Origin: an uncultured Flavobacteriaceae bacterium
GTDB taxonomy: Bacteria > Bacteroidota > Bacteroidia > Flavobacteriales > Flavobacteriaceae
Length of the DNA stretch: 64,000 nt
Reading direction: 5' to 3'
Assembly (NCBI GenBank): GCA_947503005.1
Contig: CANNCA010000001.1
Location: 310,001 to 374,000 of the forward strand
Below are positions 348 to 49,757 of the stretch, in pieces. Both the position numbers and the translations under genes were made by a program. Every line of letters starts with the position of its first letter. The first letter of the stretch is position 1. The notes under the pieces are model-generated. The model was not told the DNA's origin. It did not search any database and saw only the letters and a program-made list of their open reading frames with translations.

Positions 348-956
348 ATGGCTTTTGAATTACCAAAATTACCCTATGCTTATGATGCATTGGAACCACA
401 TATTGATGCCAGAACCATGGAAATACATCACACTAAACACCACAATGGATATACTGCGAAGTTGAATGCCGCAATAGAAGGCACTGATTTAGAAGGAAAG
501 TCGATTGAAGACATTTTGACCAATCTAGATATGTCAAATGGTGCGGTAAGGAACAATGGCGGAGGCTTTTTCAACCATTCACTTTTTTGGGAAGTAATGT
601 CTCCTAACGGCGGTGGAACGCCTACAGGTGCTTTCGCCGATGTGATAAATGATGCTTTTGGATCCTTCGATAGTTTTAAGGAAAAGTTCAGCACAGCTGC
701 AGGCACGAGATTTGGTTCGGGTTGGGCTTGGCTTTGTGTACATAAAGGAGGCAAAGTAGAGGTGTGTTCAACACCAAATCAAGATAATTCGTTGATGCCG
801 AATACAGGATGTGGTGGACACCCTATCCTAGGCTTGGATGTTTGGGAGCATGCCTATTATCTGAACTATCAAAATAGAAGACCAGATTATGTACAGGCTT
901 TTTTCAATGTCATTAATTGGGACAAGGTTTCAGCGCTTTATGAAGCTAATAAGTAA
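348..956 (+). CDS. sodA: Superoxide dismutase, Mn-type (Fe/Mn family)
   Basis: Cytoplasmic superoxide dismutase, converting superoxide to oxygen and hydrogen peroxide. At 202 residues it has the normal length. The four metal ligands are visible: H27 (MEIHHTKHH), H77 (FFNHSLFW), D164 and H168 ([11 protein letters not shown]). The glutamine that hydrogen-bonds the metal-bound solvent comes from the C-terminal domain (Q145 in STPNQD), and position 73 is Gly (NNGGGFF). That pattern is the manganese-type signature. Cambialistic use of iron cannot be excluded from sequence. The gene is monocistronic: its own -7 box lies upstream and a strong terminator directly downstream. Confidence 0.95.
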
Positions 957-1016: not shown

Positions 1017-1030
1017 GATTTGAATTTAAA

Positions 1031-1104
1031 ATAGAAAAGGGCGGAGAAGCCTCCACCCTTTTCGTCCCAAATCTTACCATAAACTTAACCTACTTATGCT
1101 ATGG
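1031..1104 (-). ncRNA. Array small RNA, unit A
   Basis: Predicted small RNA of about 74 nt on the minus strand. It begins near CCATAGCATAAGTAGG (5' end about 1104), runs through a segment shared by all units, and ends in a GC-rich hairpin (1035-1062) followed by a U-rich tail. The -7 box TAATTTAG (1117-1110, one mismatch to TAnnTTTG) lies five bases before CCATAG. The hairpin has a U-G pair on this strand that would be a C/A mismatch on the other. CCAU at the 5' end can pair with AUGG further in. The family is not identified; Flavo-1 (Rfam RF01705) is one candidate to test. Confidence 0.7.
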
Positions 1105-1109
1105 CAATA

Positions 1110-1117
1110 CTAAATTA
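1110..1117 (-). promoter_or_regulatory. -7 box of small RNA unit A
   Basis: TAATTTAG read on the minus strand, one mismatch to TAnnTTTG. The spacer to CCATAG is five bases, the same as in units B, D and E. Confidence 0.5.
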
Positions 1118-1237
1118 CTGGTATTGTGCCAAATAAAAAAGAAATTTTAGGATTTTTTAAGAGCAATATTTGGTCAAAAACACATGCTTCCGCCCTTAAA
1201 AGTGAGGTTAACCTTGTTAAATACTGGGGTTTTCATA

Positions 1238-1310
1238 ATAAAAAAGGCAGGGCTTAGCCCCACCTTTTTTCCCCAAATCTTACCATGAACTTAACCTACT
1301 TATGCTATGG
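1238..1310 (-). ncRNA. Array small RNA, unit B
   Basis: Second complete unit, about 73 nt on the minus strand. The 5' conserved segment begins at 1310 (CCATAGCATAAGTAGG). The terminator hairpin is at 1240-1270; on the minus strand it contains two adjacent G-U wobble pairs (GGUGGGGC with GCCCUGCC) that would be mismatches on the plus strand. A run of six U follows. The -7 box TACTTTTG, a perfect match, is five bases upstream of the 5' end. Confidence 0.75.
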
Positions 1311-1315
1311 TCCTC

Positions 1316-1323
1316 CAAAAGTA
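1316..1323 (-). promoter_or_regulatory. -7 box of small RNA unit B
   Basis: TACTTTTG on the minus strand is a perfect TAnnTTTG and is five bases from the CCATAG start. Confidence 0.65.
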
Positions 1324-1435
1324 AGGTATCATTTGACTATTAAAAAAGGTTTTAGTTAAACGTCAGTATACTTGGTTGAAATGCTTTTCTGATTTTTTTC
1401 GCACCCTAGAGAATGCAAATGTGAGGGTACTTAAA

Positions 1436-1475
1436 ATATAAAGGCGGAGCATTGCTCAGCCTTTATCCCCAAATG
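1436..1475 (-). ncRNA. Array small RNA, decayed or divergent unit C
   Basis: Only the 3' part of the unit is recognisable: ATTTGGGG followed by a hairpin (1439-1465) with the same GAGC-AAT-GCTC tip as unit D, and a T-rich end. One U/C mismatch interrupts its stem on either strand. The roughly 40-nt core is replaced by unrelated sequence. A CCATAG appears further upstream (about 1542 on the minus strand) but without a -7 box at the conserved spacing, so any transcript from here would be longer or dependent on a different promoter. Confidence 0.4.
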
Positions 1476-1675
1476 GTATCATGGAGCATTGAAATCGATA
1501 TCGTATTAAAAGTTGATCTCGAATTCATTTACCGACTATGGTTCTATAACGTCGGTTCATCGAATTGTGCTGTTTACCTCGATTATAGTTACTGGAAAGT
1601 GTTTCCCTTGGGTTTCGTTGGTTTGCACAGCCGTAGCCGTCAATTTTAATTAGTCGCAATCCCGAGAAGTTTATA

Positions 1676-1749
1676 AAAATAAAAAGGCGGAGCATTGCTC
1701 CGCCTTTTTCCCCAAATCTTACCATGAACTTAACCTACTTATGCTATGG
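1676..1749 (-). ncRNA. Array small RNA, unit D
   Basis: Third complete unit, about 74 nt on the minus strand, 5' end near 1749. The core is identical to units B and E. The terminator is a perfect 13-bp stem at 1681-1709 with an ATT loop (AAT on the minus strand), followed by a U-rich tail. The perfect -7 box TACATTTG lies five bases before CCATAG. The stem tip is shared with unit C, which suggests that C and D arose by duplication. Confidence 0.75.
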
Positions 1750-1754
1750 TTTCA

Positions 1755-1762
1755 CAAATGTA
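1755..1762 (-). promoter_or_regulatory. -7 box of small RNA unit D
   Basis: TACATTTG on the minus strand is a perfect TAnnTTTG at the conserved five-base spacing. Confidence 0.65.
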
Positions 1763-2033
1763 TGTTAGTGGGTTGCATCTAAAAAAATTCCTTGTTGAAC
1801 TTCCTATTAATGGGTTAAAGTGTAGTTTGGTTTTAAATGAACCAATATTGTAGCATTAAATTTTGTTTTTGTTGATGGGGAAAATCAGACTTTCCTATGA
1901 TTCAGCAGCATTTTTTTGCTGGTTGATTGTCTGAGCAGAGGCGAGTGAGCAGTCTCTGATTTAGTCGGGAATAATTCAGCTGTCAGATTTGAATTTCCGC
2001 CTTTGGTAGATAATATTACACGGAATCTCATTA

Positions 2034-2108
2034 AAATAAAAAAGGCGGGGAAGCCCCCACCTTTTTTGCCCCAAATCTTACCATGAACTTAACCTACTTA
2101 TGCTATGG
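2034..2108 (-). ncRNA. Array small RNA, unit E
   Basis: Fourth complete unit, about 75 nt on the minus strand, 5' end near 2108. It has the conserved core, then a hairpin at 2038-2067 with a U-G pair on the minus strand and six U after it. The -7 box TATTTTAG (one mismatch) is again five bases upstream. This unit is the first of the array downstream of purF on the same strand; no clear purF terminator lies between them, so purF read-through into the array is possible. Confidence 0.7.
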
Positions 2109-2113
2109 CAGGT

Positions 2114-2121
2114 CTAAAATA
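2114..2121 (-). promoter_or_regulatory. -7 box of small RNA unit E
   Basis: TATTTTAG on the minus strand, one mismatch to TAnnTTTG, five bases before CCATAG. Confidence 0.5.
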
Positions 2122-2214
2122 GGTGTGCGGCTCTGCCTAAGGACTAAAAACCCGCTGAAAAGCGATAATGATCGACGAAATGCACGATATTGCTGAAATT
2201 CATCGATAAAGTGT

Positions 2215-4113
2215 TCAATATGCTCGTTCATTTTTACCTTCATAGAAGTTAATGAAGGCCTTATTAACAACGCGATTTCCGCCTGCTGTGGGGTAATTTC
2301 CTGTGAAATACCAATCACCTAAATTCTTAGGGCAAGCTTGATGAAGGTTTTCAATATTTTGATAAAGAATTTCTACCTCCGCTTTAATGTTCTTAGGGCT
2401 TAACAATTCACCAATTTTCAAAGAGATTTCATCGGCCGTAAAAGGTGCATAGAAGTCTTTTACATAGTTGATAACCTCAGCGTCTTTAGATTCTATCTGT
2501 CCCAAGCATTTCTTATAAATGTTTTCTACAAGTAGCATTGTTCCCCGATCTTTATGTAATTCTAGTGCTGCTTTAAAGGCTATGAAATCTTCTAATTTGG
2601 CCATATCGATACCATAACAATCGGGATATCGTATTTGTGGGGCTGATGACACTACAATTATTTTCTTTGGCGATAATCGATCCAAGATTTTGAGTATACT
2701 TTTCTTGAGCGTGGTTCCTCTTACTATACTATCATCTATTATAACCAGATTATCTCCTTTTTGAACCGAACCGTACGAAATATCATATACGTGTGCTACC
2801 AAGTCATCCCTACTACTGTCTTGTGTGATGAACGTTCTCAGTTTGGCATCTTTGATGGCAACTTTTTCAATTCGAGGACGTACCTTAAGAATATCATGCA
2901 ATTCTTCGCTAGTAATCTTCGACCCTATTGAGAGAATCTGTTCCTCCTTCTTTTTGTTAAGGTAATTTTGTGCCTCGATTACCATTCCGAAGAAGGAAGT
3001 TTCAGCTGTATTGGGAATATAGGAGAATACCGTATTTTGTATATCATTGTTAATAGCGGAAAGTATCTGTGGAAATAATAGCTTGCCCAATTCCTTTCGT
3101 TCTCTATATATTTCCTTATCGCTACCTCGAGAGAAATAAATACGTTCAAAAGAACAGGCCTTTCTTTCTTTTGGCTCCAATATTTGCTTTACTGATGTGG
3201 TTCCGTTTTTCTTAATAACAATGGCATGACCGGGGTCTAATTCTTGAACGCTATTAAAGGGAACGTTGAATACGGTCTGTATAGCTGGTCTTTCGGAGGC
3301 AACCACAACAACTTCGTCATCTTGATAGTAGTAAGCAGGGCGTATACCGCTGGGATCACGAAGTACGAAAGCATCTCCGTGCCCAAGTAGCCCGGCCATG
3401 GCATAGCCGCCATCAAAGTTTTTGGCCGCCCTTCTTAAAATCTTATGTACTTTCAAGCGTTCTGCTATCAATGGAGAAGCTTCCAATTTATTAAACCCTT
3501 GTTTCTTGATTTGCTTGTATAATTTAGCCACTTCATCATCTAGAAAATGACCTATTTTTTCCATAACCGTAACGGTGTCGGCCATTTCTTTTGGATGCTG
3601 ACCCAATTGAACGAGATTGTCAAAGAGTTCATGAACATTGGTCATGTTGAAGTTGCCGGCAACAATGAGGTTACGGTGCATCCAGTTGTTCTGTCTAAGA
3701 AAAGGGTGAACGTTTTCAATGCTATTTTTTCCGAAGGTTCCATACCGTACGTGCCCTAATAAAAGTTCACCGATATATGGAATGTGTTTTTTCTGCAAGG
3801 CCACATCATCAGCATATTCCGGGTTCTCTTTGAGGGCCGAATTAATACGGTCATTGATTTGGGCAAAAATATCTTGAATGGGTTGCTGCTCGCTCGAACG
3901 TACACGGCTCATAAAACGTTCTCCGGCATTCATGTCCAACTTAATGCTCGCAAACCCGGCACCATCTTGACCACGGTTGTGCTGCTTTTCCATCATCAGG
4001 TACATTTTGTTCACCCCATAAAAGGCCGTGCCATATTTTTCCTTGTAGAACTCCAGAGGTTTTAGCAATCGAATAATCGATATACCACATTCGTGTTTGA
4101 TAGCGTCACTCAT
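2215..4113 (-). CDS. purF: Amidophosphoribosyltransferase-type protein (PurF family)
   Basis: First enzyme of purine synthesis, making 5-phosphoribosylamine from PRPP and glutamine. The N-terminal nucleophile hydrolase domain would start at C9 (MSDAIKHEC) after removal of the short propeptide. It is followed by the glutaminase fold (RGQDGAGF, about 47-54) and, in the C-terminal half, the PRPP-binding loop VIIDDSIVRGTT. At 632 residues it is longer than the roughly 500-residue E. coli enzyme, with an extended C-terminus. To my knowledge this long form is usual in Flavobacteriia, but that is from memory. The gene lies near purN, which supports a purine role. Upstream, a terminator separates it from the PfkB kinase gene. 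Confidence 0.85.
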   Translation of the reverse strand: MSDAIKHECGISIIRLLKPLEFYKEKYGTAFYGVNKMYLMMEKQHNRGQDGAGFASIKLDMNAGERFMSRVRSSEQQPIQDIFAQINDRINSALKENPEYADDVALQKKHIPYIGELLLGHVRYGTFGKNSIENVHPFLRQNNWMHRNLIVAGNFNMTNVHELFDNLVQLGQHPKEMADTVTVMEKIGHFLDDEVAKLYKQIKKQGFNKLEASPLIAERLKVHKILRRAAKNFDGGYAMAGLLGHGDAFVLRDPSGIRPAYYYQDDEVVVVASERPAIQTVFNVPFNSVQELDPGHAIVIKKNGTTSVKQILEPKERKACSFERIYFSRGSDKEIYRERKELGKLLFPQILSAINNDIQNTVFSYIPNTAETSFFGMVIEAQNYLNKKKEEQILSIGSKITSEELHDILKVRPRIEKVAIKDAKLRTFITQDSSRDDLVAHVYDISYGSVQKGDNLVIIDDSIVRGTTLKKSILKILDRLSPKKIIVVSSAPQIRYPDCYGIDMAKLEDFIAFKAALELHKDRGTMLLVENIYKKCLGQIESKDAEVINYVKDFYAPFTADEISLKIGELLSPKNIKAEVEILYQNIENLHQACPKNLGDWYFTGNYPTAGGNRVVNKAFINFYEGKNERAY

Positions 4114-49280: not shown

Positions 49281-49757
49281 CTATCTAAAGAATATCTGAG
49301 TAAAATAGTAGTCACCGGCAGCGCTAATTTTGACACTAACTGCGGTATGGGTGAAATCGCCTTCCATGGTTTTTTTGTGGCTTGAACTATTTAGCCAGCC
49401 TTGAAATGCCTCGATTGCGTTGTCATAATCCTTGGCAACATTTTCCGCTACATACTCGGCGCCAATTTGTGAGGAAATTTTAGATGCCCTAGAACTGAAG
49501 TTGTGATGATTGATGTCACCTAAAGAAATCATGTAGTTATTATGCTCATTTGCATATTCATAAGCTACCGAACTAAATTCGAGTTCAGGTTGACCCAAGG
49601 CCATACGGTGTTCATTGACAACAGCCAAGAGTTCTATTTCTACCTCTGTGGCGTTTTCCGCCTCGACAATATTTGTTGTTGCTACCGACTCTTTTGAACA
49701 AGAGGCCAAAGTACATACAAATAAAACGAGGACAACAAATTGCGTTCTCATTTTCAT
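49281..49757 (-). CDS. CAP (SCP/PR-1) domain lipoprotein
   Basis: A 158-residue lipoprotein. The start at 49757 (or 49751) gives MKMRTQFVVLVLFVCTLASC with lipobox TLASC; the open frame extends upstream but only the internal ATG precedes a signal peptide. The mature part is a CAP domain: VNEHRMALGQPELEFSSVAYEYANEHNNYMIS, AENVAKDYDNAIEAFQGWLNSSSHKKTMEGDFTH. The paired HNN/ENV/SSH motifs fit the CAP cavity. Role unknown; CAP proteins of bacteria bind lipids or act as proteases. Confidence 0.82.
   Translation of the reverse strand: MKMRTQFVVLVLFVCTLASCSKESVATTNIVEAENATEVEIELLAVVNEHRMALGQPELEFSSVAYEYANEHNNYMISLGDINHHNFSSRASKISSQIGAEYVAENVAKDYDNAIEAFQGWLNSSSHKKTMEGDFTHTAVSVKISAAGDYYFTQIFFR

Follow-up and report, generated by a model that had tools for sequence, protein, structure and literature searches.

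The Flavobacteriaceae, a family with gliding and type IX secretion as its hallmarks, rank among the major degraders of algal polysaccharides; their phylum is known for lacking Shine-Dalgarno sequences. The Qrr RNAs of Vibrio are sibling small RNAs (sRNAs) that occur in several near-identical copies with separate promoters and exert dose-additive control. In enterobacteria, MicA, RybB and MicL act close to the start codon to repress the mRNAs of lipoproteins and outer-membrane proteins, and GibS is an sRNA of Bacteroides. Here we analyse an array of four near-identical minus-strand units in a 64,000-nucleotide stretch of DNA from an uncultured Flavobacteriaceae bacterium (assembly GCA_947503005.1, contig CANNCA010000001.1, positions 310,001 to 374,000; hereafter the window). 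We hold, with a probability of about 0.75, that the array consists of four copies of a trans-acting sRNA of about 70 nt, found family-wide in Flavobacteriaceae, that covers the start codons of envelope and secretion mRNAs.

Like the Qrr genes, the array comprises near-identical sRNAs with separate promoters; unlike them, it belongs to another phylum, has TAnnTTTG promoters with no sigma-54 promoter seen, and is predicted to pair at start codons. It differs from MicA, RybB and MicL in that it has no Rfam match to them, in its predicted bipartite pairing through a loop and a linker, and in a predicted target gene of type IX secretion. Within the phylum, Rfp18 is described in PMC9723704 as conserved in the genus Flavobacterium and needed for normal mRNA of two metalloproteases, with an adhesin as a predicted target. 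Rfp18 pairs via its third stem-loop, whereas the array RNA has at most one weak stem-loop and a terminator; compared by described fold, the two are probably different. The BTnc RNAs of Bacteroides are Bacteroidota sRNAs too, and the title of their report (PMC7366714) names metabolic regulation; the BTnc231 and BTnc049 models scored far below gathering in a permissive Rfam scan of positions 950-2250. All 66 hits of that scan were weak and below gathering, and Flavo-1 (RF01705), an RNA motif likewise recurrent in Flavobacteriaceae, was not among them and does not match the array RNA. With Rfam 15 the whole window gave no match at gathering score among 4227 models, 6S RNA included, so that the comparison with Flavo-1 and 6S proposed in an earlier note on this DNA returned no family. 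Candidate sRNAs of F. columnare are reported in PMC5395568. Our literature search, with the supplementary sRNA lists for F. columnare (PMC5395568) and F. psychrophilum outside its scope, found no report of the array RNA; it is possible that RNA sequencing has already picked it up in either species as a nameless candidate. Neither the literature search nor Rfam produced a family-wide Flavobacteriaceae sRNA with a conserved target set. Judged by its sequence, the array RNA appears to be a new family of a known kind, a multi-copy trans-acting sRNA with a bipartite start-codon mode.

The features of the locus are given below. Units and the decayed copy were placed from sequence, boxes and repeats from sequence and family statistics, and the two protein genes were named by sequence recognition.

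1034..1104, minus strand: sRNA unit 1, sodA-proximal, type 1 (core with U24 and GGGAC), with a 3' hairpin terminator
1241..1310, minus strand: sRNA unit 2
1681..1749, minus strand: sRNA unit 3
2040..2108, minus strand: sRNA unit 4, purF-proximal
1110..1117, minus strand: -10 box TAATTTAG of unit 1, one mismatch
1316..1323, minus strand: -10 box TACTTTTG of unit 2, perfect
1755..1762, minus strand: -10 box TACATTTG of unit 3, perfect
2114..2121, minus strand: -10 box TATTTTAG of unit 4, one mismatch
1355..1380, minus strand: direct repeat TTCAAC-N14-TTTAAC upstream of unit 2, a putative activator site
1794..1819, minus strand: direct repeat TTTAAC-N14-TTCAAC upstream of unit 3
2154..2179, minus strand: direct repeat TTCGTC-N14-TTCAGC upstream of unit 4
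about 1441..1484, minus strand: decayed fifth copy, the core 3' half CATTTGGGG with a terminator; no 5' half or promoter is recognisable
348..956, plus strand: sodA-type superoxide dismutase, a flank conserved with the array
2215..4113, minus strand: purF-type amidophosphoribosyltransferase, a flank conserved with the array

The four units were found where the earlier note had placed them, with 5' ends at 1104, 1310, 1749 and 2108. A TAnnTTTG-like box precedes each core by exactly five bases, perfect in two cases and with one mismatch in the other two, and each unit is closed by a GC-rich hairpin and a U tail. The core of the window units is CCATAGCATAAGTAGGTTAAGTTCATGGTAAGATTTGGGG, from which the sodA-proximal unit differs by T at position 24 and by GGGAC. 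The note's account of the units had to be narrowed: the spacers that it called unrelated are not wholly so, as units 2-4 have an upstream direct repeat in common, and the copies that it called redundant are so only in part, as the sodA-proximal unit stands apart in its promoter type and at two fixed places in the core. Within the 4.58-Mb genome the 16-nt core start CCATAGCATAAGTAGG has four exact occurrences, all inside the array. Allowing up to two mismatches added just two places outside the array, both with two mismatches; the reversed pattern gave five matches.

A covariance model built from 30 units (threshold E ≤ 0.001) had matches in 240 of the 299 family genomes sampled, about 10 of which had also supplied sequences for the model; the figures were 213/249 among the good genomes and 193/236 for genera. 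In a sample of the order 40 of 296 genomes matched, all within Flavobacteriaceae in the GTDB sense, and a pattern search for the 36-nt core at up to three mismatches succeeded in 20 of 59 genomes, the window's own included. The core, which the earlier note had proposed to seek in other genomes, is accordingly widespread in the family; among the matches listed, named genomes include Maribacter, Zobellia, Arenibacter, Flagellimonas/Allomuricauda, Robiginitalea, Eudoraea, Cellulophaga, Kordia and others. At 203 of 210 loci with a unit match, sodA and/or purF was present (both at 162, purF only at 26, sodA only at 15, neither at 7), where many of the loci overlap, locus ends account for some flank losses, and one locus (L240) is a target site taken for a unit. 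The number of units per locus ranged from one to six. Single copies with a -10 box and their own terminator also occur, in some genomes, in loci without sodA or purF (L145, L149/L013, L015, L016), with upstream repeats visible by eye; a terminator of the GACAGGGG type is found in L013, L015 and L016.

Conservation within the unit was assessed in 464 distinct units, a set fetched in part by the exact core pattern and hence biased toward conservation. The first 30 nt are one and the same sequence in 289 units and differ from it by a single change in 107 more. Variation lies chiefly in G6/A6, A10/T10, C24/T24 and CCAG for CCAT, and in the linker in the loss of one A (GGTAAGATTT to GGTAGATTT); AGTAGGTTAA and GATTTGGG are altered in just a handful of units. 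Five bases before the core, the TAnnTTTG box is perfect in 170/464 and matches at least five of six bases in 398/464, and 13 other offsets gave 0 to 15 perfect boxes each. An inverted repeat of at least eight pairs followed by TTTT was present in 440/464 units, in 279 distinct hairpin sequences. On these sequence grounds the array is a member of an RNA gene family with a conserved core, promoter offset, terminator and place, and each unit would be an independent short gene with its own promoter and intrinsic terminator.

The earlier note had described the core as having little internal pairing. This needs a correction: in most variants (16 distinct forms, with 92.9% of cells paired) the 5' half of the core can fold into a 7-bp hairpin whose loop has 13 nt. 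The hairpin is weak, at -4.1 kcal/mol no better than shuffles. A protein-coding reading of the core was rejected by eye, as stops occur in several frames and the downstream frame varies with terminator length.

The loop (UAAGUAGGUUAA, core positions 8-20) and the linker (GAUUUGGG, positions 31-39) are complementary, in antiparallel order, to leaders of exported proteins that end at start codons and have the form CCCAAAUC-N(0-12)-UUAACCUACUUAUG. As judged by sequence, bipartite pairing with such leaders, and loop pairing with gldL in one clade, is well supported as a prediction. Loop complements lay within -50 to +25 of the start of an open reading frame, on the right strand, at 9 of 30 loci, two of the nine being a shared coding motif of response regulators. 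Linker complements alone were rejected as a target signal (2/30 loci at starts), as was the junction complement TACCATRAACTTB, which is present in 102/120 genomes at counts that by eye resemble the control and was near a start at 1/30 loci. We then considered 56 loop-complement sites at up to one mismatch, among the matches listed, all outside the array and gldL, with L348, L350 and five sites seen earlier omitted. A strict start-codon rule placed 19 of the 56 at starts; with L405, which the rule put inside an open reading frame and which was counted as a start by homology to L404, there were 20. The permuted-seed null, drawn from part of the window's own genome only and under a start rule near but not identical to this one, had 17/244 at starts (P ~5e-10, computed for 20/56). 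A linker complement lay upstream of 5/19 start sites vs. 3/37 others, or 6/20 vs. 2/36 with L405 moved, and a crude rule assigned a hydrophobic N-terminus to 16 of the 20 proteins with start sites, against 438/1023 in the background (P ~8e-4).

Several of these targets recur as homologues across genera, namely CAP lipoproteins (L512 and L521, and also L234 from the loop-complement search of 120 genomes) and 'NCTQxPEN' lipoproteins (L404, L405). Two further lipoproteins, L343 and the CBM96-domain protein L427 of the window's own genome, have SCSKDSDLLSE in common, and three secreted proteins (L406, L528, L541) have near-identical leaders, 'tagtCCCAAAct.aa.TAACCTAyTTATG'. Three of the four non-array sites at up to one mismatch in the own genome are start codons, of an HPPK/kinase protein, a secreted protein and the CBM96 lipoprotein; in L435 of the same genome, at two mismatches to the pattern, CCCAAATC and the complete 12-nt complement of the loop immediately precede the start. 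Pfam domains in the target set are GldL_N, CAP, LytTR and CBM96. Complementarity to ribosomal RNA (E. coli 16S/23S) was also scored, and no stretch of at least 9 nt was found and duplexes were no better than those of shuffled cores. In two genera (L232 and L339) a loop complement overlaps the start codon of a 22-residue hydrophobic open reading frame (MKNI.RIV.LVSLV..VSKI.F), which could be a small membrane protein. L338 and L536, and less closely L221, have in common CGCCCCAAATTTGAT followed by AACCTACTTATG, with both sRNA-complementary segments and no long open reading frame; this stretch may be another RNA or a short gene.

The leader of gldL, a gene of the type IX secretion and gliding motor whose neighbours we take to be gldK and gldM, provides a second line of evidence. 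After widening to one mismatch, ATTAACCTACTTAAGT was identical in 18 genomes of 18 genera among the matches listed, once per genome. At all 18 loci it sits in the gldK-gldL intergenic region amid variable surroundings, ends 29-38 nt before the gldL start and includes UUAACCUACUUA, which complements loop positions 9-20 exactly. GldL identity was assigned by Pfam for one sequence, and duplex energies in these 18 genomes, which were picked up by the match, are no independent test. Eight genomes of the same kind as the window's instead have CCAAATCTT (four) or CCAAATACTTA (four) in the gldL leader, and both are complementary to the linker UAAGAUUUGG, CCAAATACTTA with a single bulged base; in G025 and G034 the linker UAAGAUUUGG is present and the gldL leader has neither. 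The group g146, probably Flavobacterium, has CAAATCTA in the gldL leader in 5 of 10 genomes, matching its one-base-shorter linker UAGAUUUGG. In 30 genomes chosen regardless of leader, linker-gldL pairing was stronger where the sRNA is present (mean z -1.22, n = 21) than where it is absent (-0.25, n = 9; P = 0.006), with G018 and G370, whose energies were computed with the consensus core, counted as sRNA-positive; single-genome z-scores were mostly modest.

For the CAP-domain lipoproteins, the 19 closest homologues represent 19 genera and have leaders such as ACCAAATCTAAATTTACCTACTT immediately before the ATG. Duplex z-scores were below -2 in 17 of the 19, with energies of -28.4 to -18.4 kcal/mol; three of these homologues had been found via the site itself, and the sRNA forms of G030, G076 and G189 were entered by hand or assumed. 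Seven of the 19 leaders contain CCAAATCTA, which is exactly complementary to the linker form UAGAUUUGG of that clade. Some species have ACTTAACCT in place of ACCTACTT, and ACTTAACCT pairs with the adjoining part of that sRNA region. A TAnnTTT box lies 5-7 nt before the complement in 15 of the 19 leaders, those with a scorable gap, which implies that nearly the whole inferred 5' untranslated region of the CAP mRNAs is complementary to linker and loop. By eye, the bases between the two segments are unlike the sRNA antisense strand, so the leaders do not look like inserted sRNA copies. The window itself encodes a distant CAP homologue (49284-49757, minus strand) whose leader keeps CCTACTTA only.

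A number of results weigh against start-codon pairing by a family-wide sRNA. Across 120 genomes loop complements numbered 40 vs. about 69 for the reversed-pattern control (control summed by hand), and linker complements, at 47 vs. 25 (summed by hand), were slightly above control. In the own genome, 18 non-array loop matches at up to two mismatches stood against 33 for the reversed pattern, and in the 27% of that genome examined (1023 genes) the seed was not enriched at gene starts: one gene had at least 8/10 matches (permuted mean 0.9) and seven had at least 7 (mean 7.2). Pairing with the own gldL leader (z -1.0) and with the in-window CAP homologue (z -0.55) was not significant, and distant CAP homologues reached z < -2 in just 2 of 11 cases. 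Loop-gldL pairing did not differ significantly between sRNA-positive and sRNA-negative genomes among the same 30 (P = 0.13), and covariation in the 5' hairpin was not significant. Just 3 of the 56 loop-complement sites came from genomes without the sRNA, where the association was hardly tested, and, since related genomes are not independent, the P values overstate the significance. The complementarity of unpaired segments to mRNA leaders is conserved, and weaker or absent in the window's own genome. The earlier note's proposal of trans-acting RNAs with bases free for targets nevertheless gains support from the family-wide conservation of core, promoter offset and terminator, the Rfam negative and the conserved leader complements.

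The complementarity can also be read in other ways. The RNA might act mainly by binding protein, as a sponge or in a 6S-like manner, with loop and linker as protein contacts and leader complementarity secondary; nearly 40 near-invariant nucleotides exceed the needs of a short seed, and one to six copies per locus would suit a titrator. On that view one would not expect bipartite complements to be conserved at start codons and at gldL, and no Rfam match was obtained at gathering score, so we consider it improbable. Still less probable, in our estimate, is that the leader motif CCCAAATC...TTAACCTACTTATG acts in its own right as a signal for translation or transcription, and that the sRNA merely resembles its complement. 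The motif does abut start codons, and in 15 of 19 CAP leaders (gap scorable) CCAA follows the TAnnTTT box by 5-7 nt. The two segments nonetheless correspond to separate stretches of the sRNA, in antiparallel order, the gldL loop complement lies away from the start codon, and all 20 start sites come from sRNA-positive genomes, though few sites from sRNA-negative ones were examined.

That the units are a mobile or selfish repeat without cellular function, for instance one like a miniature inverted-repeat transposable element, is hardly credible as judged by place, promoter and core. Tandem copies, and single copies elsewhere in some genomes, would fit such an element; the usual place between sodA and purF, the fixed promoter offset and a frozen core beside varying terminators would not. 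The earlier note had named scattered copies without the promoter spacing as the mark of a mobile repeat, and the copies that we found keep their promoter context, all five single-copy loci examined retaining a -10-like box and a terminator. A last alternative accepts the pairing and reverses its sign: the sRNA would activate its targets by opening leaders or protecting 5' ends. The CAP-leader complement would begin at or near the mRNA 5' end, as placed by the inferred transcription start, where a duplex could protect from decay, and there is a precedent for positive effects in F. psychrophilum, where according to PMC9723704 loss of Rfp18 lowers target mRNA. A duplex over a start codon normally blocks initiation, and we regard activation as unlikely while allowing it a real chance.

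Under the favoured reading, trans-acting pairing over start codons, loop and linker together would pair with the leader such that the duplex covers the start codon of lipoprotein and secreted-protein mRNAs, and in one clade the loop would also pair with the gldL leader. With less certainty, the pairing may repress translation and the multiple copies may add dose. If this is true, a single locus gives direct access to the post-transcriptional control of secretion, gliding and surface lipoproteins, and the system would be a clear example of an sRNA controlling mRNAs that lack Shine-Dalgarno sequences, the start-codon region itself being paired.

The upstream regions suggest how the locus could be regulated. 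Of the 360 units outside the sodA-proximal type 1, 270 have a direct repeat TTNRNC-N14-TTNRNC upstream, with its second half beginning 50-52 bases before the core in 251 of the 270; shuffles of the same base composition gave a mean of 3.5, and 3 of 104 type-1 units had the repeat. Type-1 units have a different upstream region, of which about 45 bp are conserved across the 104. These separate upstream regions tie one output RNA to at least two promoter kinds. Sites of the LytTR family consist, according to PMC6193735, of 9-bp direct repeats that lie shortly before the promoter, with a spacing of 12 bp in most cases and of 11 or 13 bp in some. The period of 20 in the 270 units equals 9 bp plus the minority 11-bp spacing, at the lower edge of the resulting 20-22 bp range; on this comparison by spacing alone (PMC6193735), the repeat is perhaps a putative LytTR-type activator site. 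Units other than the sodA-proximal one might then be switched on by an activator that binds the direct repeat, perhaps of LytTR type. In one genome a LytTR response regulator gene (L403:693-1391) has an exact 13-nt loop complement at its own start codon, a single case; pairing there would close a feedback loop if that regulator is the activator.

A wider proposal, which we offer tentatively and consider possible though doubtful, is that this is a core RNA of the whole Flavobacteriaceae, encoded at one syntenic multi-copy locus with separate inputs, and that it sets the level of the exported proteome by two-segment pairing with leaders of lipoproteins and type IX cargo, with gldL, and with feedback through the LytTR regulator. 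Upstream of the purF-proximal unit in L032, L051, L133 and L146, an inverted repeat like ATCGATGAAATGCACA...TGTGCATTTCATCGAT was seen by eye beside the direct repeat of the first unit.
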